11,402 nucleotides of DNA from positions 1 through 11,402 of the forward strand of contig URRU01000044.1 in assembly GCA_900550335.1 (NCBI GenBank). Reading direction: 5' to 3'. The stretch is from an uncultured Clostridium sp. (GTDB taxonomy: Bacteria > Bacillota > Clostridia > Peptostreptococcales > Peptostreptococcaceae). How positions within the stretch are numbered: the stretch's first letter is position 1; each line of letters opens with the position of its first letter. Below, one piece after another: positions 109 through 11,182 of the stretch. Position numbers and translations under genes: made by a program. The notes under the pieces are model-generated. The model was not told the origin of the DNA and ran no database searches. It saw only the letters and a list, made by a program, of their open reading frames with translations.

Positions 109-1038
109 ATGATTACTACAATAACATTCAATGCATCTATAGATAGATTATATAGAGTAAGTGAAATAAATATAGGTGAAGTGCAGAGAGTAATCGAATC
201 TAATGCCACTGCTGGAGGAAAGGGAATAAACGTAACAAAAGTGTGTAAAATTCTTGGTGAAGATCCTATGGCGATTGGATTCTTAGGTGGATTTAATGGT
301 GCATTTATAAAAAATGAGCTAGACAAGAAAGAAATAAAAAATAGATTCACAAAAATAGATTCTGAAACTAGAAACTGCTTAAATATTATAGAAAATAATA
401 AAGTTAGTACTGAGTTTTTAGAAAAAGGGCCAGTTGTAGAAGCTAGTGATTTAGAAAGATTTGAAGAAGATTTAAATGCAGTTATAAAAGATACTAAGGT
501 TTTAGCAGCATCTGGAAGTTTTTGCCAGAATATGCCAGTTGAATACTACGAAAAAATAGGAAATATATGCAGAGAAAATGGAGTTAAGTTTGTACTAGAT
601 ACTTCTGGAAATGCGTTAAAGGCAGCTCTTAAATCTAAGCCTTATCTTATAAAACCTAACACAGATGAGATAAAACAGCTGCTAGATGTAAATGTAGAAT
701 CAAGAGAAGAAATAATAGAAGCTGGTAAAAAACTTTTAGAGTTAGGTGCAGAAAATGTATGTATATCTCTAGGAAAAAATGGAATGATATATCTAGATGG
801 TAAAAATGTTTATGATGTTAAAATTCCAAAAGTAGAGGCAGTAAATACTGTTGGCAGTGGAGATAGTACAATAGCAGGATTCAGTGTAGGTATACTTAGA
901 GGATATAGTCTAGAAGAAACTATAAAACTTGCAAATGCATGTGGTATAAGTAATGCTTTAAACGTAGACACAGGATTTGTTAAATTAGAAGAAGTTGAAA
1001 AGTACAAAAACTTAGTGGAAGTAACTAAAATAGCTTAA
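109..1038 (+). CDS. PfkB-family sugar-phosphate kinase (tagatose-6-phosphate / 1-phosphofructokinase type)
   Basis: Probable cytoplasmic ATP-dependent kinase that phosphorylates a ketohexose phosphate to the 1,6-bisphosphate. The 309-residue length is normal for LacC/FruK. The N-terminus has the family pattern TFNASID with substrate-binding Asp12, then the glycine-rich AGGKGINV segment (residues 35-42) typical of PfkB sugar kinases. The C-terminal signature TVGSGDS (residues 247-253) contains the expected catalytic base Asp252 and the anion hole; it reads GSGD rather than the commoner GAGD. GGGAGG at 98-103 lies 5 bases before the ATG. Next to an AgaS homologue and a class II ketose-bisphosphate aldolase, tagatose-6-phosphate is the likelier substrate, but LacC and FruK cannot be told apart with confidence from sequence. 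No clear terminator follows, so it may be co-transcribed with agaS. Confidence 0.9.
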   Translation: MITTITFNASIDRLYRVSEINIGEVQRVIESNATAGGKGINVTKVCKILGEDPMAIGFLGGFNGAFIKNELDKKEIKNRFTKIDSETRNCLNIIENNKVSTEFLEKGPVVEASDLERFEEDLNAVIKDTKVLAASGSFCQNMPVEYYEKIGNICRENGVKFVLDTSGNALKAALKSKPYLIKPNTDEIKQLLDVNVESREEIIEAGKKLLELGAENVCISLGKNGMIYLDGKNVYDVKIPKVEAVNTVGSGDSTIAGFSVGILRGYSLEETIKLANACGISNALNVDTGFVKLEEVEKYKNLVEVTKIA

Positions 1039-1253: not shown

Positions 1254-2423
1254 ATGTTTAAATTCGACGAACAGAAATTAAAAGATTTAGGTGCAATAAT
1301 AACAACAACAGAAATAAAACAGCAGCCAGAATTATGGGCTGAAGCTTACGAAATATACAAAGAAAACAAAGAAAACTTAGATAAATTCATATCTAACATA
1401 GGAGAAAAACACGGACAGTTTAGAGTAATATTTACTGGTGCTGGTACTTCTGCTTATGTAGGTAATTCAATAGTTCCTTACTTAAACAGAAAAAATGACC
1501 AGAAAAAAATGATAATAGAAGCTATAGCTACAACTGATATAGTTTCAAATCCTTACGACTATCTAAAAGAAGATATGCCAACTTTATTAGTATCATTTGC
1601 AAGAAGTGGTAACAGTCCAGAAAGTTTAGCAGCTCTTAACCTAGGAAAACAGGTAGTTAAAGATTTCTATCATTTAGCTATAACTTGTGCTCCAGAAGGT
1701 AAATTAGCACAGATGACTAAAAACGACGAACACAACTACTTATTATTAATGCCAGCAAGATCTAATGACCAGGGATTTGCTATGACTGGAAGTTTCTCTT
1801 GTATGATGTTATCTGCAATGCTTATATTCGATAACTTAAATGAAGACGAAGAAAGCTCATATGTAAGAACAATAGTTGAAATGGGAAGAAATGTAATAGA
1901 AAGAAAAGATGAAGTACATAAATATATAGAAGGTGATTTTGATAGAGTTGTTTACCTAGGTTCAGGTGGATTAGGTGCTTTAACTCAGGAAGCTCAGTTA
2001 AAATTACTTGAATTAACTGCAGGTAAAATAGCTACAGGATACGATTCTTCAATGGGATTCAGACACGGCCCAAAATCATTCATAAACGAAAACACTCTAG
2101 TATTTGTATTTGTTTCTAACAATGCATATACAAGACAGTACGATTTAGATGTACTTGAAGAAATAAATGCAGACCAGATAGCAAAATTAACTTGTGCTAT
2201 ATCTGTAGAAAATGAAGCAAACTTCTCTGGGGAAACATTCGGATTTGGAAAAGAATACGCTAATCTTCCAGATGCATACCTTGCATTCCCTTACATAATG
2301 TTTGCTCAGGCATTATCTCTATTTGTTTCAGTTAAAGTTGGAAATAAACCAGATACTCCATCTCCAACAGGAACAGTTAATAGAGTTGTTAAAGGTGTAA
2401 TAATACACGAATACGAAAAATAG
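1254..2423 (+). CDS. agaS: AgaS-type SIS-domain protein, probable galactosamine-6-phosphate deaminase/isomerase
   Basis: Cytoplasmic enzyme that in the characterised AgaS family converts galactosamine-6-phosphate to tagatose-6-phosphate with release of ammonia. Its 389 residues match the usual length of about 385. It has two SIS (sugar isomerase) domains, roughly residues 35-190 and 215-365. The first contains FTGAGTSAYVGNS and the phosphate-binding SFARSGNSPES. The second contains YLGSGGLGALTQEAQLKLLE and the FRHGPKSF segment with the catalytic-region His seen in AgaS and GlmS isomerase domains. AAGGAG at 1241-1246 lies 7 bases before the ATG. The aldolase follows after 44 bases. No deacetylase (AgaA/NagA) is present in the window, so growth on the N-acetylated sugar would need one elsewhere. 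All Gln codons I read here are CAG. Confidence 0.85.
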   Translation: MFKFDEQKLKDLGAIITTTEIKQQPELWAEAYEIYKENKENLDKFISNIGEKHGQFRVIFTGAGTSAYVGNSIVPYLNRKNDQKKMIIEAIATTDIVSNPYDYLKEDMPTLLVSFARSGNSPESLAALNLGKQVVKDFYHLAITCAPEGKLAQMTKNDEHNYLLLMPARSNDQGFAMTGSFSCMMLSAMLIFDNLNEDEESSYVRTIVEMGRNVIERKDEVHKYIEGDFDRVVYLGSGGLGALTQEAQLKLLELTAGKIATGYDSSMGFRHGPKSFINENTLVFVFVSNNAYTRQYDLDVLEEINADQIAKLTCAISVENEANFSGETFGFGKEYANLPDAYLAFPYIMFAQALSLFVSVKVGNKPDTPSPTGTVNRVVKGVIIHEYEK

Positions 2424-2467: not shown

Positions 2468-3319
2468 ATGGCATTAGTAACTACAAAAGAAATGCTTTTA
2501 AAAGCGCAGGAAGGTCATTACGCAGTAGGTGCGTTTAATGTTGAAAATATGGAAATGGTTATGGCTGTAATAGGAGCTGCAGAAGAATTAAATTCTCCAG
2601 TTATACTACAGACTACTCCATCTACAGTAAAATACGCAGGTTTAGATTATTATTTAGCAAATGTTAAGGTTGCAGCTGAAAAAGCTAGTGTACCAGTAGC
2701 AATGCACTTAGACCACGGTTCAAGCTTTGAACTAGCTATGCAGGCACTTAGAACTGGATATACTTCAATAATGATAGATGGTTCTCATGAATCATTTGAA
2801 GATAATATAGCTGTATCTAAAGCAGTTGCAGACGCTTGTAGACCATCAGATATACCAGTAGAAGCAGAATTAGGTAAAGTAGGCGGAAAAGAAGATGATT
2901 TAGATGGTGGAGAAGGAAATGCTCATACAGATCCACAGGAAGCTAAAGAATTCGTTGAAAGAACAGGAGTGTCTTCATTAGCTGTAGCAATAGGTACTGC
3001 TCATGGTATATACAAAGGTGAACCTAAAATAGATTTAGATAGATTATCAGAAATAAGAGAAGTTGTATCTGTTCCACTAGTACTTCACGGTGGTTCTGGT
3101 ATACCTGACGAAACAATAAAAGAAAGTATAAGAAGAGGTATAGCAAAAGTAAACTATGCAACTGAACTTAGAATAGCATTCAGTAATGGAGTTAAAAAAG
3201 TTTTAGCTGAAAACCCAGATGTAATAGATCCTAAAAAATATGGAGCAGCTGGACGTGACTCTGTTAAAGAATTTGTTAAAGGAAGAATGGAAGTTTGTGG
3301 CTCAATAAATAGAGCATAA
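2468..3319 (+). CDS. Class II ketose-bisphosphate aldolase (tagatose-1,6-bisphosphate aldolase, GatY/KbaY type)
   Basis: Zinc-dependent cytoplasmic aldolase that splits a ketohexose 1,6-bisphosphate into dihydroxyacetone phosphate and glyceraldehyde-3-phosphate. At 283 residues it matches GatY/KbaY and the short class II FBP aldolases. HLDHG (80-84) provides catalytic Asp82 and zinc ligand His83. The other ligands appear as His179 in GTAHGIYKG and His207 in LVLHGGSG, and NYATELR (229-235) fits the phosphate-binding loop. The C-terminal CGSINRA resembles the KbaY/GatY ending. The first half of the pathway is encoded immediately upstream, so tagatose-1,6-bisphosphate is favoured, although fructose-1,6-bisphosphate cannot be excluded and many members accept both. 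No partner subunit (GatZ/KbaZ) is present, as is normal for Gram-positive versions. A terminator-like hairpin follows 23 bases after the stop. Confidence 0.88.
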   Translation: MALVTTKEMLLKAQEGHYAVGAFNVENMEMVMAVIGAAEELNSPVILQTTPSTVKYAGLDYYLANVKVAAEKASVPVAMHLDHGSSFELAMQALRTGYTSIMIDGSHESFEDNIAVSKAVADACRPSDIPVEAELGKVGGKEDDLDGGEGNAHTDPQEAKEFVERTGVSSLAVAIGTAHGIYKGEPKIDLDRLSEIREVVSVPLVLHGGSGIPDETIKESIRRGIAKVNYATELRIAFSNGVKKVLAENPDVIDPKKYGAAGRDSVKEFVKGRMEVCGSINRA

Positions 3320-3342
3320 TTTGATAAACCAACCTTTTAAAG

Positions 3343-3379
3343 ACCCTAAATTCATACTATTTGTGTGTGGATTTAGGGT
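3343..3379 (+). terminator. Terminator-like hairpin after the Aga cassette
   Basis: ACCCTAAATTCATAC (3343-3357) pairs with GTGTGTGGATTTAGGGT (3363-3379), using 15 pairs with two G-T wobbles between 3343-3357 and 3365-3379 and a 7-base loop. The following TATTT is a poor U-tract, so termination may be partial. It lies between the aldolase stop and the promoter-like elements of the regulator gene. Confidence 0.6.
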
Positions 3380-3461
3380 ATTTAAGCAGATATACTATTT
3401 ATTTGCGTTTGTAAAAATAATGGGGCAATGTTTTCCTAGTTAAAGTGAAAAAAATATGTTT

Positions 3462-3671: not shown

Positions 3672-3700
3672 AACCTTAAAGACAAAGGACACAACTAATT

Positions 3701-3712
3701 AAGGGGGTGATC
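3701..3712 (+). promoter_or_regulatory. Near-perfect Shine-Dalgarno that sets the regulator start
   Basis: AAGGGGGTGATC differs by one base from the full anti-Shine-Dalgarno complement AAGGAGGTGATC. Seven bases separate the G-run (3703-3707) from the in-frame ATC at 3715, which is ideal spacing. No ATG, GTG or TTG occurs in this frame between the upstream stop (TAA, 3700-3702) and the ATG at 3832. Confidence 0.65.
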
Positions 3713-3714
3713 TT

Positions 3715-5616
3715 ATCAGACAACGTATTATTCTTGAAGAACTAATTAATAGCGATGGATACTTAAAATTAGATTATTTTGCAGAAAAATTAGGAGTTTC
3801 AACAAGAACCATAAGAAACGATATAAAGGATATGGAAAAAGATTATGAGCGTAACGGATTTTGTTTGGAATACAAAACAAGGTTAGGTTATATTCTTAAA
3901 ATAACAGATAAGAATAAGTTTGAAACTTACTTAGAAAAATTACCCGATTATATAGTTGAAAGTCCTGAACAAAGATTGGATTCAATTATAGTGGAATTAT
4001 TGCTAAAGGATGGATACAAAACAATTGAAAGCTTAAGTGATAAGTTTTTAGTGAGTACATCCCAGATAAAAAATGATTTGAAAAAGATAGATGATAGGCT
4101 GCTTAAATACGATTTGAGATTAGATAGAAAACCTCATTATGGATTAAAAGTAGAAGGTCCTATAGATTCAATTCAAAAATTAATCAGAGAGCTTTACGCA
4201 AAGAAAAATAGAAATTTTATGAAATATAAAATGACATATGTAAGTAAAGCAAAGATAGTAAATATAAAATCTACTATAAAAGATATTTTCAATGAACATT
4301 CACTAGAGGTAAATATAGCTGAGCTGGAAGAAATACTATCACAGTTAGTTATCTTATATATAAAGACAAGCTTAAGAAAAAGCTCTGATGTATATATGAT
4401 AGATAAAAAAGAAGATGATGAAGTATTAGAAGGCATATTAAGTGGAATATTCTATGAAAATAGATATTATTTTACCCCTCAGGAAAATGATTACCTAAAA
4501 AGACTTATAAGAGAAAAAACAAAAGATAAGAAAGCTGCTTCTCTTGCAATAGATAAAAGCAAGTTAGAGGAAGTTATATATGAGTACTTTAAAGAGGTTG
4601 ATAAAAGATATAAAACAAGCTTTTTAGATGATAAAGAGTTTTTAAAGCTTTTATACTTACATATAGCTGCTTTAATAGAAAGATCTAAAAACAACCAAAG
4701 TATCTCAAATCCATTTTCAGTGAAAATAAGTCAACAATACCCTACAGTTTTCAACTTAGCAATACAGTTATCAAAAAAAATAGAGCAGGAATATGATATA
4801 GAAATAGATCAGAATGAAATCGGATTTATAGCTACTCATATAGCGGTTCCTTTTGAAAAGAGAGAAAAAAACAACTTCGATAAGAAATACAGAATAGCAA
4901 TTGTTTGCTCATCTGGAGGAGGAAGTGCATTTTTAATAAAGCTTAGATTAGCTGAGATTTTTAGAAATGCAATAATAGAAAACTTCTCATTATTAGATGA
5001 AGAAGAGGTTATAGACTTTAAACCAGATTTAATTTTCTCAATAACAAAGCTAGGATTTAAAATCGACGCTCCAGTAATTTTAATAAATGAAATTTTAGAT
5101 GAGCTAGATAATATGAACATAAAAGAAAGTGTAATGTTTGTAGACCATATGCATAGTGCTAATAACCCTAAAGAATATATATTGAGTTTATTTAGCAAAA
5201 ATCATTTTAGATGCATAACAGAAAAAATGGATTACAAAGAAGTTCTTTATTCTATGGCACAGGATGTTGTAGATGATGGAGCTTGTTCCCCTACATTCCC
5301 AGATGATGTTTGGGAGAGGGAGTCTTGCCTAAGTACTATATATAAAAATGGAGTTGCAATACCTCATCCAATAGAGATGACAGGAAATAAAAACTTAATA
5401 TCTGTAGGTCTTGTGCAGGCAGATATTGAAAGCGAAGGAAAAACTCCAAAAGTAATATTTATGGTTTCTCTTAAAAAAGGAGATTTAGAACTACACAGAC
5501 AGATATCTAAATACCTAGATAGGGTAATGTCTAGTGAGGAAATAGTGGATATGCTAAATAAATCTCAGTCTTATGAAGAATTCATATATAAATTGAAAAT
5601 ATATATAGGAGGATAA
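3715..5616 (+). CDS. PRD-containing transcription regulator with EIIB- and EIIA-like domains (BglG/MtlR/LicR-type, DNA-binding)
   Basis: Probable PTS-controlled activator of the operon it heads. Numbered from the ATC at 3715 (633 residues), the domains are an N-terminal winged HTH (2-60, with LGVSTRTIRNDI), an Mga-type HTH (about 83-149), PRD1 (about 174-279), PRD2 (about 281-384), an EIIB-like domain (about 392-484, CSSGGGSA with Cys398) and a fructose-type EIIA domain (about 489-633, AIPHP with His551). PRD2 keeps both usual phospho-His, 316 (LYLHIAAL) and 375 (IATHIAVP). PRD1 has Leu where the first His is expected (LVILYIKTS) and no clear second His. The two HTHs imply DNA binding rather than BglG-type RNA antitermination. 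Starting at the ATG at 3832 would destroy the first HTH and leaves only one base after AAAGGA, so I extended to ATC. A lost or mutated start is the alternative. The last codons contain the ribosome binding site of the next gene. Confidence 0.85.
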   Translation: MRQRIILEELINSDGYLKLDYFAEKLGVSTRTIRNDIKDMEKDYERNGFCLEYKTRLGYILKITDKNKFETYLEKLPDYIVESPEQRLDSIIVELLLKDGYKTIESLSDKFLVSTSQIKNDLKKIDDRLLKYDLRLDRKPHYGLKVEGPIDSIQKLIRELYAKKNRNFMKYKMTYVSKAKIVNIKSTIKDIFNEHSLEVNIAELEEILSQLVILYIKTSLRKSSDVYMIDKKEDDEVLEGILSGIFYENRYYFTPQENDYLKRLIREKTKDKKAASLAIDKSKLEEVIYEYFKEVDKRYKTSFLDDKEFLKLLYLHIAALIERSKNNQSISNPFSVKISQQYPTVFNLAIQLSKKIEQEYDIEIDQNEIGFIATHIAVPFEKREKNNFDKKYRIAIVCSSGGGSAFLIKLRLAEIFRNAIIENFSLLDEEEVIDFKPDLIFSITKLGFKIDAPVILINEILDELDNMNIKESVMFVDHMHSANNPKEYILSLFSKNHFRCITEKMDYKEVLYSMAQDVVDDGACSPTFPDDVWERESCLSTIYKNGVAIPHPIEMTGNKNLISVGLVQADIESEGKTPKVIFMVSLKKGDLELHRQISKYLDRVMSSEEIVDMLNKSQSYEEFIYKLKIYIGG

Positions 5617-5619
5617 AAG

Positions 5620-6663
5620 ATGAATATAGATTTTCTAAAAAAATTGTCTGAAGCAGATGCCATAGCTTCTAATGAAGGCGAAGTTAGAAAGGTTATGCTA
5701 GACGAATTAAAGGATTATAGTGATAAAGTGGAATACGATGGTTTAGGAAGTGTAATATTTTCAAAAATAAAAGGTGAAGACCTACCAAATATAATGCTTT
5801 GCGCTCACATGGATGAAGTAGGATTTATGGTAAGAAGTATAGATAAATTAGGTATGATACACCTTATAAATATAGGTGGTGTTAAACCCTTAGCCCATTT
5901 CACGCAGAGAGTAAGAATAACAACTAGAGAAGGTAAGAAAATACCTGCTATAATAAATGCTACTTATAATGAAGGAAAAGCAGAAAATATATACGCAGAC
6001 ATCGGTGCATATACAGAAGAAGAAGTAAGAAATCTAGGAATAAGAGTTGGAGATATGGTTACATACTCAACTGAATTTGAAAAATTCGACCTACCAAATA
6101 GATTAGTTGGTAAAGCATTTGACGATAGATTAGGATGCTTTGTTATGGGAGAAGTTTTAAAAAGACTAGAAAAAGAAGATTTAAACTGTAATGTACACTT
6201 TGCAGCAACAAGTAGTGAAGAAGTAGGAATAAGAGGTGGTAAGACAGCTACTTATTTCGTAAATCCAGATATAGTATTCGCAATAGATGTTGCATGTGCA
6301 AAAAATGAATTTGTAAGAGATTACACAAATCAGAAACAGATAGACAAGGGTATCATGCTTATGCATAGAGATAGAACTTTAGTTCCAAATAAAGAACTAG
6401 TTAATTACGTTATTGATGTAGCTGAGGAAAACGGTATATCGTTACAGCACGACATGTTCCAGTCAGGAGGAACAGATGCAGGTGAGGCTCATCTAGTAAA
6501 CGAAGGGAAAGCAGCTGTTGTTACTTGTATCCCAGTAAGATACGGACACTGTGCATTCTCAATAGTAAGTAATAAAGATCTTGAAGATACTATAGAGCTA
6601 TATACTAAATTAATTTTAGATTTAGATAAAGAAAAATATAATAAAATAAGAAATTTTGGCTAA
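5620..6663 (+). CDS. M42-family metallopeptidase (FrvX-like / glutamyl aminopeptidase family)
   Basis: Predicted cytoplasmic dinuclear-metal aminopeptidase of 347 residues, a usual length for M42. The expected metal and catalytic residues are visible: His63 and Asp65 in CAHMDEVG, Asp168 in KAFDDR, Glu200-Glu201 in SSEEVGIRGG, Asp223 in AIDVA and His310 in VRYGHCAFS. The family is also annotated as FrvX or as an 'endoglucanase', and it recurs beside PTS genes such as E. coli frv. Two places depart from the motifs I know: SSEE instead of QEE, and HCAFS where HSPxE is typical, so specificity may be changed. The ATG lies 3 bases after the regulator stop, with AGGAGG (5607-5612) inside the regulator, which implies translational coupling. 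The protein could trim a peptide or amino-acid conjugate brought in by the adjoining PTS, but the substrate is unknown. Confidence 0.88.
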   Translation: MNIDFLKKLSEADAIASNEGEVRKVMLDELKDYSDKVEYDGLGSVIFSKIKGEDLPNIMLCAHMDEVGFMVRSIDKLGMIHLINIGGVKPLAHFTQRVRITTREGKKIPAIINATYNEGKAENIYADIGAYTEEEVRNLGIRVGDMVTYSTEFEKFDLPNRLVGKAFDDRLGCFVMGEVLKRLEKEDLNCNVHFAATSSEEVGIRGGKTATYFVNPDIVFAIDVACAKNEFVRDYTNQKQIDKGIMLMHRDRTLVPNKELVNYVIDVAEENGISLQHDMFQSGGTDAGEAHLVNEGKAAVVTCIPVRYGHCAFSIVSNKDLEDTIELYTKLILDLDKEKYNKIRNFG

Positions 6664-6691
6664 TTTAAAAGGTAAAAGGAGATTTTGAAAA

Positions 6692-7000
6692 ATGTCAACA
6701 GAAATGCAGATAATGGAATTAATATCTACAGCAGGAGAAAGTAAAGCTAAAGCTTTCGAAGCTTTAAAAAAAGTTAAAACAAGAGATTTTGATGGAGCAA
6801 GAGCTTTATTAAAAGAAGCTAGAGAAATAGACGTAGCAGCTCACAATATACAGACTCAGCTTATAACACGGGATTTAAATGAAGATATGGAAAGCCCAGA
6901 AATGAGCTTATTAATGGTTCACGCTCAGGACCACTACATGACTTCTCAGTTAGCTAAGGACATAATAGAAGCAGTTATAAATGTTTTCGAAGAAGAATAA
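6692..7000 (+). CDS. PTS lactose/cellobiose-family EIIA component
   Basis: Small cytoplasmic phosphocarrier of 102 residues, the usual length for PTS_IIA of the lactose/cellobiose/chitobiose family, which forms helical trimers. The motif LLMVHAQDHYM (73-83) contains His77, the residue phosphorylated by HPr, and Asp80, equivalent to the Asp that binds the central metal in the trimer. The N-terminal AGESKAKAFEAL (14-25) is also typical. AAAAGGAGA at 6674-6682 precedes the ATG by 9 bases. It follows the M42 gene by 28 bases without a terminator and passes phosphate to the EIIB encoded downstream. A 147-base gap separates it from EIIB, wider than elsewhere in the operon. Confidence 0.93.
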   Translation: MSTEMQIMELISTAGESKAKAFEALKKVKTRDFDGARALLKEAREIDVAAHNIQTQLITRDLNEDMESPEMSLLMVHAQDHYMTSQLAKDIIEAVINVFEEE

Positions 7001-7147
7001 GATTTGAACTTAAAAAATTAGAAACAAATAAATCAGAAAGATAAATTTGTCAAAAGTAAATTAGAAATTAATTATATTTTAAAAATATAAATAATATAAA
7101 AAAATCCAGTAAAAATAAAAAACAAAATTTTAGGAGGAATAATAGTT
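7001..7147. other. 147-base AT-rich gap between EIIA and EIIB with possible weak internal promoter
   Basis: The largest gap within the operon contains TTGTCA (7047-7052) and TATATT (7073-7078), 20 bases apart, which is too long for a good promoter. The inverted repeat TTATATTTT (7072-7080) with AAAATATAA (7082-7090) is all A-T and unlikely to terminate. A strong AGGAGG (7132-7137) precedes EIIB by 10 bases. No small gene with a convincing start was found. Confidence 0.3.
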
Positions 7148-7480
7148 ATGAAAATATTATTATGTTGTGCAGGTGGATTTTCAACAAACATGCTTATGCA
7201 GAATATGAAAAAGGTAGTAAAAGAAAGTGCTAAATTAAACGAAGATGATTTCGCATTCACTGCTATACCAGCAGATTCACTAGAAAGTGAAATAGACAAC
7301 TGGGATATAGTAATGATAGGACCTCAGGTTTCTCACAAAACTGACTTTATAGCATCTTTATGCGAACCAAGAAATATACCTTACGTTGTAATAGATAAAG
7401 ACGTTTACGGAAAAATGGACGGAGCAACAGTTATGAAATTAGCTCTAGTAACTTACAAAAAACATCAGATGGGACAGTAA
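7148..7480 (+). CDS. PTS lactose/cellobiose-family EIIB component
   Basis: Cytoplasmic phosphotransfer domain of 110 residues, matching stand-alone EIIB of the lactose/cellobiose class. The N-terminal P-loop-like motif CAGGFST (residues 7-13) follows the first strand (MKILLC). Cys7 fits the conserved C-x-x-G-x-ST position that accepts phosphate from EIIA and hands it to the sugar at EIIC. A second Cys (Cys6) stands directly before it. IVMIGPQVSH (55-64) fits the strand and loop found at this position in CelB/ChbB-type proteins. The gene lies between EIIA and EIIC, 33 bases before EIIC, completing the three-part permease. Sequence alone does not define the sugar. Confidence 0.93.
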   Translation: MKILLCCAGGFSTNMLMQNMKKVVKESAKLNEDDFAFTAIPADSLESEIDNWDIVMIGPQVSHKTDFIASLCEPRNIPYVVIDKDVYGKMDGATVMKLALVTYKKHQMGQ

Positions 7481-7513
7481 AATTTAATATAATAAAAAGA
7501 GGAGATTGAATAT

Positions 7514-8845
7514 ATGTTTGCTAAATTTGAAGCATTTATGAATAAATACTTTATGCCACTAGCGCATAAAGTGGATAATCAGAGACACTTAAGTGCGATA
7601 AAAGCCGGAATGGTTGCGATGACACCATTCACAATACTAGGAAGTTTATTTGCAGTACTTCCAGCTTTACCAAATATGATCGGGGAAAACAACCCACTAA
7701 GCCAGTTTATATTAAATAACGCGGTAATATTAGATTTACCAGTAACACTTTCAATAGGTTTAATAGGTTTATATTCTTGTATGTGTATAGCTTATAACTT
7801 AGGTAATCATTATAAATTATATATTCCTGGATGTATAACTCTTGCAACATTCGCATTCTTATTCTTAGTTGCAGATATAACTCCAGAAGGTGCTTTAGAC
7901 CTAGGTAACTTAGGTGCTAAAGGTCTATTTACAGGTATGATAGCAGGTTTACTTGCAGTAGAATTATACAACTTCTGTAAAGTTAAAAACCTTACAATAA
8001 AAATGCCAGAAGGCGTACCAGATTTCGTATCAAAATCATTCGAGTTAATACCTACAAGTTTAATAGTTGGTGGGACTTTTATAGTCGCAAGATTCGCATC
8101 ATTAGCAATATTCGGTGAATTACCACCACAGATACTTACTAAATTCTTAGCTCCATTAGTTGGATCTATGGATAACCCATGGGCAGTTCTTGGATTAAAC
8201 TTTGCTATATGTACAATATTCTTCTTCGGAATACATTCATCAGTTTTCAGTCCAATAACAAGACCAATAATGGTTACATTCATAGCTGAAAATATAGCAG
8301 CTATGCAGGCTGGACAGCCAATACCTCACTTCTATACAGCAGGTACATCAAGTGCATTCTTCGGATTCACAGGATGTGGTATAAGTATAGGATGTGTAAT
8401 AGCATGTTTACTATCTAAAAACAAAAGATACAAACAGATCGGTAAAGTTTCATTATTCCCAGCTCTATTCGGTATAAATGAACCAATATTATTCGGTGCT
8501 CCAATAATATTAAACCCAATAATGTTCATACCACACGTATTTGGTGGAGCCATAATAGGTACATTACCAATGTTCTTAATGCACTGGGGATTATTAGATA
8601 AACCAATATTTGACCCACCATACGTTGGAGTATTCTTAGAAGGATTCTTAACAAACGGTGACTGGAGAACAATATTAGCCAATGGATTACAGTTAGTATT
8701 AGCAATTGCTCTATACTGGCCATTCTTCAAAGTTATGGAACGTCAGGAAGAAGAAGCAGAGGCTAAAAAAGCAGAAGAAGCAACAAAAGATATATTCTCA
8801 AGTGAAGATAAAGACTTACTTGGAGATTTAGACCTAGACTTCTAA
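7514..8845 (+). CDS. PTS lactose/cellobiose-family EIIC permease
   Basis: Integral membrane permease of 443 residues, the usual size of ChbC/CelC-type EIIC, with about ten hydrophobic segments between residues 28 and 408. FFFGIHSS (236-243) carries the conserved His241, and FPALFGINEPILFGAP (315-330) carries the NEP motif with Glu323. Both positions line the sugar site in the family. The protein ends in a charged, Glu-rich cytoplasmic tail (about 410-443) that looks flexible. GAGGAGA (7499-7505) lies 9 bases upstream of the ATG. The family mainly imports beta-linked disaccharides or amino-sugar oligomers as 6-phosphates, yet no phospho-beta-glycosidase is encoded nearby. The neighbours are peptidases and a PLP lyase, which points to an unusual cargo. 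Confidence 0.93.
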   Translation: MFAKFEAFMNKYFMPLAHKVDNQRHLSAIKAGMVAMTPFTILGSLFAVLPALPNMIGENNPLSQFILNNAVILDLPVTLSIGLIGLYSCMCIAYNLGNHYKLYIPGCITLATFAFLFLVADITPEGALDLGNLGAKGLFTGMIAGLLAVELYNFCKVKNLTIKMPEGVPDFVSKSFELIPTSLIVGGTFIVARFASLAIFGELPPQILTKFLAPLVGSMDNPWAVLGLNFAICTIFFFGIHSSVFSPITRPIMVTFIAENIAAMQAGQPIPHFYTAGTSSAFFGFTGCGISIGCVIACLLSKNKRYKQIGKVSLFPALFGINEPILFGAPIILNPIMFIPHVFGGAIIGTLPMFLMHWGLLDKPIFDPPYVGVFLEGFLTNGDWRTILANGLQLVLAIALYWPFFKVMERQEEEAEAKKAEEATKDIFSSEDKDLLGDLDLDF

Positions 8846-8869
8846 TTTAAAAAAGAGAGGACTAAAACC

Positions 8870-9940
8870 ATGAACGATAGAGTAAAAAAACTAAGAGATT
8901 TAATAGACGAATTAAACACAGAGGCTATTTTATTAAAAGGAAAAAACAATAAGAGATATGTCGGTGCACTTACAGGAAGCGGTGTATATGTACTTATAAC
9001 GAAAGATTCGAAATATCAGATTTTAGACGGAAGATACATAGACGAAGCTGACAAAAAAACAACTGGGTTTATTAAAAAAATTGTACCACAGGGTTCTTAT
9101 ATACCTAGCATACTAGAATTATTAGAAGAGCTAAATATAAAAAATCTCGCAATAGAAAGCCAGGCTATGACTATACAGGATTACATCCGGTTAAAAGAAG
9201 CAGGATTAGATCTTACTCTATTGACAAATGAACTTGGAAAAGCAAGAGCAATCAAATCAGATGATGAGATTGCTCTTATCAAAAAAGCATGCGAGATAAC
9301 AGATGAAGTATTTAGTGAAGTTATTTCAGTAATAGAAGAAGGTATGACAGAGCTTGAGGTAGCAGCTCTACTTCAATACCATGCTCTTAAAAAAGGTGCA
9401 AGTGGAATGTCTTTTGAAACAATAGTTGTTTCAGGTGATAGAGGTGCAATGCCTCATGGAAGACCGACAACAAAAAAATTAAAAAGAAATGAAGCAATAA
9501 CAATAGATTTTGGTGTTGTTTATGAAGGATACCAATCAGATATGACTCGTACTATATCTATAGGAGAGCCTCCTGAAATTATTAAAAAAGTGTATGATGT
9601 TGTTTTAGAAGCTCAGACATCTGCAATTGCAGCTATTAAAGAAGGTGCAAAGGCAAGTGAAGTCGATAGCGTGGCTAGACAAATTATAGAAGAGCATGGA
9701 TTTGGTGAATATTTCAACCATGGACTAGGACATGGAATAGGTCTAGGAGATGGTGAAGTTCCTACACTAAACCAGAGAAGTAAAGATATTCTAACAGAAG
9801 GAATGGTTATGTCTTGTGAGCCAGGAATTTATATACCTGATGTAGGTGGAGTTAGAATAGAAGATGATGTTGTTATAATAGACGGAAAAGGTGTTTCGCT
9901 TAATAAAACAACTAAAGAATTTATAATATTGGGAGAGTAA
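8870..9940 (+). CDS. M24-family metallopeptidase (Xaa-Pro aminopeptidase/dipeptidase, PepP/PepQ/YqhT-like)
   Basis: Predicted cytoplasmic dinuclear-metal peptidase of the pita-bread fold, 356 residues, matching the short Gram-positive Xaa-Pro peptidases. An N-terminal creatinase-like domain (about 1-125) is followed by the catalytic domain. All five metal ligands are in place: Asp213 (TIDFG), Asp224 (SDMTRT), His288 (NHGLGHGIG), Glu317 (CEPGIY) and Glu331 (RIEDD). His196 in MPHGRP and His284 match the proline-site histidines of the family. The gene starts 24 bases after EIIC with GAGAGG (8855-8860) 9 bases before the ATG. Its own 3' end contains the ribosome binding site of the next gene. It may remove an N-terminal residue ahead of proline, for example from proline-rich glycopeptides, but this is inference from context. 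Confidence 0.9.
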   Translation: MNDRVKKLRDLIDELNTEAILLKGKNNKRYVGALTGSGVYVLITKDSKYQILDGRYIDEADKKTTGFIKKIVPQGSYIPSILELLEELNIKNLAIESQAMTIQDYIRLKEAGLDLTLLTNELGKARAIKSDDEIALIKKACEITDEVFSEVISVIEEGMTELEVAALLQYHALKKGASGMSFETIVVSGDRGAMPHGRPTTKKLKRNEAITIDFGVVYEGYQSDMTRTISIGEPPEIIKKVYDVVLEAQTSAIAAIKEGAKASEVDSVARQIIEEHGFGEYFNHGLGHGIGLGDGEVPTLNQRSKDILTEGMVMSCEPGIYIPDVGGVRIEDDVVIIDGKGVSLNKTTKEFIILGE

Positions 9941-9945
9941 TTAAT

Positions 9946-11133
9946 ATGGAATATAATTTTGACAAGGTAATAAACAGAAAAGAAGGTAACTGTAGAAAAT
10001 GGAGTAACCATGTATTAAAAGAAAAATTTGGCTTAGGTGCAGATGCAATCCCTATGGATTTAGCGGATATAGATTTTGAATGCTCACCAGCTATAAAAGA
10101 AGCAATCGCTAAAAGAGCAGCGGTTGGAGATTACAGCTATACATTTGTAAGCGACGATTTCTACGATGCTGTAATAGATTGGAACAAAAGAAGATTCAAT
10201 GTAGATATAGAAAAAGAATGGATAAAACTTACTTTTGGTACAGTATCAACTCTTCATTATATAGTTCAGGCTTACACTAAGGAAGGAGAAGGGGTATTAA
10301 TAAATACACCAGCTTACGATCCTTTTGCTGAAGCTGTAGAAAACAACAACAGACAGTTATACTGCAGTCCATTAAAATTAGTGGACAATAGATATTATTT
10401 AGATTTTGAAGATATGGAAGAACAGATGAAATCTAATAATATAAAAGTATTTATCTTCTGTAGTCCACAGAATCCATCTGGACGTATATGGACAAAGGAT
10501 GAGCTATATAGAGTGTCAGAATTATGTCTAAAATATAATGTACTTTTAGTATGTGATGAAATACATAGAGATATAGTATTTGATAGAAGTCAATTTACAT
10601 CTTTATGGAATGCACATCCTGAAATACATGAAAACAGTATAGTATGTGTTTCACCTAATAAAGGATTTAACCTAGGTGGACTTAAAACTTCTTACGTTGT
10701 AATAAGAAACAAAGAAGTAAGAGAAACTTTATTAACTAGATTAAAAAGCAACTCAATAACTTCTCCAAACGTATTTGCTGTACCTGCTATAGTAGCGGCT
10801 TATAATGACAGTGAAGAGTGGTTAGATCAGATGACTGCATATGTTGCAGGAAACTTCGAGATAGTTTACGACTTTTTCGAAAAAAATATGCCTAAAGCAA
10901 AAGTTATGAAATCTGAATCATCTTTCCTTGCTTGGATAGATGTTAGAGAAATATTTGCAAATGAAGAAGAAATGAGAGACTTCTTTATAAAGGCTAATCT
11001 AACTATGGTAGTTGGAAGTTATTTTGTACGGGACGGAGAAGGATTCGTAAGAATCAATATCGGATGCCCAAGAGCTACATTAAATGAAGCTTTAAATAGA
11101 ATTAAAAATACATATGAAGAACTATTTTGTTAG
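9946..11133 (+). CDS. MalY/PatB-type PLP-dependent C-S beta-lyase (class I/II aminotransferase fold)
   Basis: Cytoplasmic PLP enzyme of 395 residues; MalY/PatB relatives are about 390 and beta-eliminate cystathionine or cysteine S-conjugates to pyruvate, ammonia and a thiol. Expected residues are Tyr124 in TPAYDPF, Asn176 in SPQNPSGR, Asp204 in CDEIHRDI, the Schiff-base Lys239 in SPNKGFNLGGL and the carboxylate-binding Arg369 in FVRINIGCPR. PMDLADIDFECSPAI (36-50) is the MalY/PatB N-terminal pattern. It starts 6 bases after the M24 stop with GGGAGAG (9931-9937) inside that gene, so translation is probably coupled. E. coli malY likewise pairs with a PTS permease gene (malX), and MalY there also modulates a regulator. 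It could release sugar or sulfur from a Cys or Ser conjugate, or act as a simple aminotransferase. Confidence 0.88.
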   Translation: MEYNFDKVINRKEGNCRKWSNHVLKEKFGLGADAIPMDLADIDFECSPAIKEAIAKRAAVGDYSYTFVSDDFYDAVIDWNKRRFNVDIEKEWIKLTFGTVSTLHYIVQAYTKEGEGVLINTPAYDPFAEAVENNNRQLYCSPLKLVDNRYYLDFEDMEEQMKSNNIKVFIFCSPQNPSGRIWTKDELYRVSELCLKYNVLLVCDEIHRDIVFDRSQFTSLWNAHPEIHENSIVCVSPNKGFNLGGLKTSYVVIRNKEVRETLLTRLKSNSITSPNVFAVPAIVAAYNDSEEWLDQMTAYVAGNFEIVYDFFEKNMPKAKVMKSESSFLAWIDVREIFANEEEMRDFFIKANLTMVVGSYFVRDGEGFVRINIGCPRATLNEALNRIKNTYEELFC

Positions 11134-11148
11134 TTCCAGATAATCCCT

Positions 11149-11182
11149 AAGACCATTGTAGCAATGCGGTGGTCTTTTTTTT
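11149..11182 (+). terminator. Intrinsic terminator of the PTS-peptidase operon
   Basis: AAGACCA (11149-11155) pairs perfectly with TGGTCTT (11170-11176), with further inner pairing ATTG/CAAT, and the 3' arm runs into eight T residues (11175-11182). It starts 15 bases after the stop of the C-S lyase gene. This is a textbook rho-independent terminator and the clearest one in the window. Confidence 0.9.

Follow-up and report, generated by a model that had tools for sequence, protein, structure and literature searches.

Permeases of the phosphotransferase system (PTS) are known for importing sugars, and enzymes of sugar metabolism are the usual companions in their operons. Why, then, is a PTS of the lactose/cellobiose (Lac) family encoded together with two peptidases and a carbon-sulfur (C-S) lyase? 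The question is raised by contig URRU01000044.1 of an uncultured Clostridium sp. (Peptostreptococcaceae; assembly GCA_900550335.1), whose 11,402 nucleotides, read on the forward strand, are the window of this analysis. The window holds a PTS operon with an unusual, conserved enzyme set that joins the themes of the Escherichia coli malXY, frv and fry-ypdEF loci. In place of sugar-metabolising enzymes, the peptidases and the lyase point to a class of nutrients, namely sugars tied to amino acids or peptides, which would enter gut and food bacteria intact. We give a probability of roughly 0.55 to the reading that the operon serves specifically to take up and break down a sugar linked to an amino acid or a short peptide.

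Conservation of the PTS-peptidase-lyase set

The first-pass annotation, made from the letters of the window alone, had described six genes on one strand, encoding an M42 peptidase, the EIIA, EIIB and EIIC components of enzyme II (EII), an M24 peptidase and the lyase, with short gaps and one terminator. Its coordinates were right, and the families were confirmed with NCBIfam and Pfam (Table 1); in gene order, the gaps measure 28, 147, 33, 24 and 5 bases. The operon begins earlier than was proposed, because the gene of a PRD regulator, left out of that description, ends 3 bases before the M42 gene. EIIA, EIIB and EIIC are separate proteins, each above its family cut-off, which places the system in the Lac family. 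The EIIC scores below the cut-offs of the equivalogs with known substrates (cellobiose, chitobiose and lactose: TIGR00359, 260 against 434 bits; PRK10297, 129 against 760; TIGR00394, 178 against 614). The gap between EIIA and EIIB (7001-7147) much exceeds the others, and the terminator scan was empty there.

We aligned 26 of 120 listed EIIC relatives and scanned one genome per species; of the 179 loci confirmed, the best 80 were retained. These split cleanly by EIIC identity into 70 loci at 46% or more and 10 at 35-37%. Among the 70, M42 lies within 6 kb of EIIC in 69, M24 in 67, a PatB/MalY-family lyase in 65 and a regulator in 59. All three enzymes occur together in 54 of the 59 loci whose flanks are long enough to either side, and the exact gene order of the window recurs in 48 of 70. 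Intergenic gaps across the operons have a median of 15 bases and are 100 bases or shorter in 297 of 325 cases. The carriers belong to 24 named genera of Bacillota, Actinomycetota and Pseudomonadota, ranging from Clostridium, Enterococcus, Streptococcus and lactobacilli to Collinsella, Olsenella, Vibrio and Photobacterium; Enterococcus relatives are numerous, and the 70 loci are not all independent. Chance clustering of the genes was ruled out, conservation in the 70 loci being far above chance. The operon is real and conserved, with co-transcription predicted, and the suggestion that the peptidases and the lyase are kept with the PTS was borne out.

These results bear on the alternative that the EII imports an ordinary disaccharide, that a phospho-glycosidase is encoded elsewhere, and that the peptidases and the lyase are a co-regulated supply of nitrogen and sulfur. 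The EIIC does belong to a disaccharide-type family (TIGR00410). As the first-pass annotation had noted, no phospho-glycosidase is present at the locus: a search of NCBIfam and Pfam, confined to the ten proteins of the window, gave no match to a glycosidase family. However, the peptidases and the lyase are kept with the EIIC across three phyla, and all three are absent from the 10 distant-EIIC loci, 6 of which have full flanks. One of these distant loci, L070, carries a GH4 glycosidase confirmed by Pfam (one locus tested), and genes clustering with it are found in five more (L068, L069, L071, L072 and L077). No glycosidase was found among the annotated directon genes of the loci, where a few small genes are unannotated. 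We consider import of an ordinary disaccharide unlikely.

The sole locus without M42, L065, has DNA that starts inside the operon. No lyase was found within 6 kb of EIIC in five of the 70 loci: L048 ends early, the lyase of L064 is in pieces in several frames, that of L078 lies about 7 kb upstream, and the remaining two (L053 and L054) are from Photobacterium. M24 is absent from three, again L048 and also L017 and L034. The operon of L064 (8251-14303; Lacticaseibacillus) looks decayed as a whole, with M42, EIIC and lyase each broken or shortened. In Enterococcus gilvus and E. raffinosus, the operon is plasmid-borne (L084 and L085, on megaplasmids of about 0.9-1 Mb). In 24 loci (e.g. L029:13210-13866), a small membrane protein of the RDD family is encoded, which is absent from the window.

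Branches and residue signature of the lyases

Lyases in the operon slot share 59-86% identity with that of the window in the nearest loci and 22-44% in the others. Seven distant slot lyases were tested, and TIGR04350 was the best match in all seven (278-361 bits; two above the cut-off of 340). We built a tree of 92 lyases, with 40 of the 65 operon lyases, the window lyase and one extra locus among its rows. On this tree, 2 changes suffice to account for the label "beside a PTS", compared with about 30 for shuffled labels; a careful 85-row tree with corrected labels gave 2 against 26. Two branches take in 51 of the 54 PTS-adjacent lyases. One contains E. coli MalY together with three other lyases that partner MalX and the lyases of two frv-type systems, of L127 with its further fructose (Fru)-type EII, and of 27 Lac-type operons. 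The other contains the window lyase, those of 14 further Lac-type operons (Collinsella among them), the upstream lyase of L078 and one fry-type partner. Since the same two branches hold partners of different EII families, the lyase tends to stay with a PTS even across these families.

Several genomes carry a second operon copy with a different EIIC (L028, L036, L078 and L146). Two operons share a genome in L001/L028 (one Peptacetobacter metagenome-assembled genome), L024/L036 and L074/L078. In the first two pairs the lyases fall in different branches, which suggests that the substrates of the two operons differ, too.

Comparison of the two PTS branches with other lyases brought out two residues, Tyr250 and Ser273 (Tyr244 and Ser268 in E. 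coli MalY). In the first comparison, for which 6 of the 41 rows labelled "none" at that stage were set aside, both residues were present in 51/51 PTS-branch lyases, and the others had Tyr in 2/35 and Ser in 1/35. The final count covers all 92 lyases: the pair is present in 52 of the 54 adjacent to a PTS, whose EIIs belong to the Lac, Fru, glucose (Glc) or mannose (Man) families, versus 1 of 38 others. Three rows were relabelled as lying beside other EIIs, L102 and L152 (Man family) and L153 (another Lac EIIC), and two of the three are without the full pair. By analogy with related PLP (pyridoxal phosphate) enzymes, Ser273 presumably lies in a loop facing the far end of the substrate.

Because the pair had been picked out after the fact, we examined 100 further lyases, chosen from lists blind to residues and context. 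They comprised all 16 new places in the phylum sample, 19 of 20 in a Vibrio order, 25 of 80 (about every third) in an Erysipelotrichales-type order and 40 of 66 in an Enterococcus order; of the last, 30 were lower-scoring, a choice that favours MalY-type lyases, and 10 higher-scoring. The EII families searched for were Lac, Fru, Glc, Man, Asc and Srl, with Gat left out. An EII lies within 5 kb of 15 of the 16 lyases with the pair versus 7 of the 84 without it (Fisher p ~1e-11, to be taken as a rough guide since the test lyases are mutually related, 8 of the 16 pair-bearers being MalX partners from one order). L222 lies on the same DNA as L039, and long stretches identical to earlier loci occur in L221, L225, L276 and L278; none of these five lyases has the pair or a nearby EII, and without them the counts are 15/16 versus 7/79. 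No such sharing was found among the 16 pair-bearers. The EII calls among the 84 include weak ones: L231 at 24 bits, and L273, L274 and L277, each with an EIIB of 42-45 bits about 2 kb off. The pair without an EII nearby was seen in L241 of the test set and L151 of the first set. Judged by these counts, the Tyr/Ser signature predicts PTS-linked lyases.

Proposed breakdown route and its sugar

In the proposed route, the Lac-family EII would import the conjugate and phosphorylate its sugar, probably at C6. The M42 aminopeptidase would then take off N-terminal residues, and the M24 peptidase would remove those that M42 cannot, for example before proline; among their E. coli relatives, YpdE does not proceed past an X-Pro, which is handled by YpdF. 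The PLP lyase would beta-eliminate the remaining O- or S-linked glycosyl-amino acid, yielding hexose-6-phosphate or a thio-sugar phosphate for glycolysis, and aminoacrylate, which would give pyruvate and ammonia. The sugar phosphate would be freed without the need of a glycosidase. The PRD regulator would switch the operon through PTS phosphorylation.

The three enzymes have intact catalytic residues. The M42 protein is 44% identical to E. coli YpdE and 32% to FrvX, in agreement with its match to PRK09961, which we take to be the YpdE family; its H63, D168, E200, E201, D223 and H310 are invariant (26/26) and presumably metal ligands. The M24 protein shares 35% identity with E. coli YpdF; Pfam assigns it to the M24 peptidases, and it falls under the YpdF cut-off (NCBIfam PRK09795, 253 against 393 bits). 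Its D213, D224, H288, E317 and E331, which we likewise assume to bind metal, are invariant as well (26/26). In the lyase, which is 29% identical to E. coli MalY, K239 (the PLP lysine), Y124, D204 and R369 are invariant in 27/27.

Genes 3' of the lyase provide chemical hints. PLP-dependent beta-elimination yields aminoacrylate, a compound that RidA enzymes hydrolyse. The gene immediately following the lyase in L023, L038, L067 and L074 is of the RidA family, above the NCBIfam cut-off in each case, which fits beta-elimination. A lactate dehydrogenase gene is directly 3' of the lyase in L013 and L057, a mannose-6-phosphate isomerase-like gene (112 bits, cut-off 116) is 3' of it in L065, and the L037 operon includes an HPr gene. 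Judged by their families, these neighbours fit pyruvate and hexose-6-phosphate as products.

A different role for the lyase has to be weighed here, namely that it mainly binds a regulator, as E. coli MalY binds MalT, or as a racemase makes or removes D-amino acids, the imported compound not being its substrate. According to the available parts of one paper, E. coli MalY interacts with MalT, and the MalY encoded in the corresponding cluster of Latilactobacillus sakei is an amino-acid racemase (PMC5845896). The invariant catalytic residues argue against such a role, though racemisation uses the same ones, and so do the RidA gene next to the lyase in four loci and the lactate dehydrogenase gene in two. 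We regard this alternative as quite unlikely.

Several observations weigh against the conjugate route. Only 4 of the 70 operons have RidA immediately after the lyase, and RidA is also found beside the lyases of L270 and L281, which have no EII nearby; its adjacency fits the general chemistry of the lyase family rather than the operon specifically. The two Photobacterium loci have no lyase that we could see, and M24 is missing from L017 and L034. One origin for the 51 PTS lyases is only mildly rejected (p-AU 0.015), so that the Tyr/Ser pair possibly reflects shared descent in part, and the tested lyases are not all mutually independent. The test set includes 11 MalX-MalY pairs, none with an M42, M24 or M20 homologue within 5 kb (two contigs end early), so the peptidases are not universal partners. 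Finally, the purified L. sakei MalY is, in the available parts of its description, a beta-lyase on L-Cys, cystine and cystathionine that also racemises many amino acids (PMC5845896). Import of a sugar-amino acid or sugar-peptide conjugate, as the first-pass annotation had it, is supported in part, by co-conservation, by the annotated directon genes without a glycosidase and by RidA; the novelty it attached to the M24 peptidase did not stand, as discussed below.

With respect to the sugar, galactosamine comes to mind because TagK-AgaS-GatY lies upstream of the operon. Of the 70 loci, 4 have this set adjoining the operon, and all four belong to Peptostreptococcaceae; in one Companilactobacillus locus AgaS is 8.6 kb from the operon. 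The window's kinase scores 256 bits against the 410 of lacC TIGR01231. The nearest relative, L001, has a NagA deacetylase (TIGR00221, 306 bits, cut-off 226) and a GntR regulator ahead of TagK-AgaS-GatY; by family assignment, NagA and these three would form a route for N-acetylgalactosamine (GalNAc)-6-phosphate. Parts of a gene like that of L001 reach into L004 and L021. In L067, another kind of amino-sugar set comes before the operon, made up of a mannose-type EII and a SIS protein, both called by sequence likeness only, and NagA. Galactosamine genes as a general part of the operon were rejected, as they adjoin it in one family only, with a strong hairpin between. AgaS as an Amadori deglycase partner was also rejected, AgaS not being co-conserved. 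GalNAc is a fair guess for the cargo sugar in this lineage only; other lineages may use another sugar, as the mannose-6-phosphate isomerase-like gene of L065 hints.

The amino-sugar pathway beside the operon in one lineage would also be accounted for if the cargo were an aminoacyl amino-sugar, for example cysteine amide-linked to glucosamine as in bacillithiol or mycothiol, with a peptidase cutting the amide and the lyase destroying the cysteine or S-conjugate. An amide-cutting metallopeptidase and a cysteine-acting lyase would both have a place in such a scheme. However, the presence of both a YpdE-like and a YpdF-like peptidase speaks for a longer peptide, and the known bacillithiol and mycothiol amidases belong to another family. 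We think such a cargo very unlikely.

The ten genes of the window all lie on the + strand: the first three are the upstream set, the hairpin comes next, and the regulator and the six operon genes follow. The hairpin region (3330-3390) folds at -24.5 kcal/mol (z -5.4), a value equalled in 0 of 200 shuffles. The hairpin is a putative terminator with a poor T tail, absent from the terminator scan. An EIIB-like stretch in the PRD regulator has a weak match only. The first ATG of this gene is at 3832, and its homologous start is an ATC codon (3715). Within 3700-3834, there is no ATG, GTG or TTG at the homologous start, and the ATC stands behind a good ribosome-binding site. The regulator of L001 starts with ATC too; those of the C. 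difficile-group relatives L003, L004 and L021 start with ATG. This may be a rare AUC start. A CcpA site search gave 7 matches (chance mean 3.3; at least 7 in 14 of 200 shuffles), none of them between gatY and the regulator, and no Rfam family reached its gathering score in the window.

Table 1. Features of the window, with the matches that identify them
Feature	Position	Strand	Evidence or remark
Hexose kinase, 1-PFK/LacC type (upstream set, lineage-specific neighbour)	109..1038	+	TIGR03168 335 bits, TIGR03828 311 bits, both above cut-off
AgaS-family sugar isomerase/deaminase (upstream set)	1254..2423	+	TIGR02815 448 bits, cut-off 529 not reached
Class II tagatose/fructose-bisphosphate aldolase, GatY type (upstream set)	2468..3319	+	PRK12737 427 bits, cut-off 383
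Strong hairpin between gatY and regulator gene	3343..3379	+	Divides upstream set from PTS operon
PRD regulator with helix-turn-helix (HTH), PRD and EIIA-like domains	3715..5616	+	Pfam Mga HTH, PRD, PTS_EIIA_2; relatives
M42 aminopeptidase, YpdE type	5620..6663	+	NCBIfam PRK09961 533 bits, cut-off 412
EIIA, lactose/cellobiose family	6692..7000	+	PF02255, 97 bits
EIIB, lactose/cellobiose family	7148..7480	+	PF02302, 42 bits
EIIC, lactose/cellobiose family	7514..8845	+	TIGR00410 260 bits, cut-off 236; PDB relative 3qnq
M24 peptidase, YpdF-related	8870..9940	+	PF00557 240 bits
PatB/MalY-family PLP C-S lyase with Tyr250/Ser273	9946..11133	+	TIGR04350 383 bits, cut-off 340
Intrinsic operon terminator, hairpin and T run	11149-11176	+	Terminator scan; fold z -4.7

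Comparison with known systems

The cluster is in print for one species, L. sakei LT-13, as a gene list (LACBS_00568-00576: PRD, aminopeptidase, IIA, IIB, IIC, RDD protein, aminopeptidase, malY; PMC5845896). Compared by this list, it shares with the window the order PRD, M42, IIA, IIB, IIC, M24, lyase, and its order is that of RDD-type loci such as L036. It differs in a second PRD gene and the RDD membrane protein, both absent from the window. Judging from the RDD operon type, its lyase probably falls in the MalY branch, and that of the window in the other. The available parts of the paper list the neighbouring PTS and aminopeptidase genes and give no PTS substrate, peptidase role or sugar conjugate. 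In the open-licence papers searched, we found no account of the conservation of the set, of the lyase signature or of a link to malXY, frv and fry-ypdEF. Among PMC11992087, PMC8386731, PMC3510511, PMC6143707 and PMC4026244 is the case of B. theta, in which GalNAc-Ser is handled by a glycosidase and a kinase; the available parts of the others do not treat the operon. In C. difficile, CD3027-CD3031 encode, as far as the available text goes, a glucose-type IIA, a phosphosugar isomerase, malY and malX (PMC4026244, PMC6143707); like the window, this cluster has an EII beside malY, and it differs in its glucose-family EII and in being listed without a peptidase.

Lyases and peptidases are combined with EIIs in further ways among the loci. 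Homologues of fryB, fryC, M24 (ypdF) and the lyase stand together in L140 of the C. difficile group, and those of frvB, an FrvX-like M42, frvR and the lyase in L264; L126 and L128 have frvB, frvR and the lyase with an M20 peptidase. These gene combinations are missing in E. coli. In L238, a Lac-type EIIC and the lyase occur with neither peptidase. Mannose-family PTS genes with a PatB-type lyase and SIS-domain proteins are found in L172 (2420-11542) and L152 (4983-10847, which also has RidA) and are possibly another relative of the same theme. In L153 (2883-6562), a distant Lac-family EIIC, an RpiR-looking regulator, a lyase without the Tyr/Ser pair and RidA stand in a row, with no peptidases seen.

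A peptide route with a similar end is the odour pathway of Staphylococcus hominis, in which peptide import and a peptidase are followed by a PatB C-S lyase acting on a cysteine conjugate. This route differs in using a peptide transporter instead of a PTS and in involving no sugar phosphate.

The window EIIC has no match to E. coli FryC, FrvB or MalX at E<=1e-3. The first-pass annotation had rightly named frv and malXY as partial parallels and missed the one closest for the peptidase pair, fryB-fryC-ypdF-ypdE-fryA; as fry-ypdEF already has an M24 peptidase, the M24 of the window is no new addition to the theme. Like the window, the fry-ypdEF operon joins a PTS to the M42 (YpdE) and M24 (YpdF) pair, but it is without a lyase, and its EII belongs to the fructose family. 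The frvABXR operon, whose EII is of the fructose family as well, shares the PTS, the M42 peptidase and a regulator with the window, but is without M24 and lyase. In malI-malX-malY, a PTS EII stands beside the MalY lyase, which has the same Tyr/Ser pair; this locus differs by its glucose-family EII, its MalI repressor and the lack of a peptidase, where the window has a Lac-family EII and a PRD regulator.

These parallels raise the possibility, doubtful for now, of a general PTS class for glycosyl-amino acids and glycopeptides. Lac, Fru, Glc and Man EIIs would be joined, often with metallopeptidases, to a specialised lyase that would free hexose-6-phosphate by beta-elimination from glycosyl-Ser, glycosyl-Thr or glycosyl-Cys, no glycosidase being needed, and the cargo in the window's lineage would be GalNAc-Ser/Thr pieces of mucin, entering the adjoining NagA-AgaS-TagK-GatY route. 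We know of no substrate for E. coli malXY, frv or fry-ypdEF, and such a class, if true, would explain these orphans. The combination of the three themes in one operon and the lyase signature make the K-12 orphans testable.

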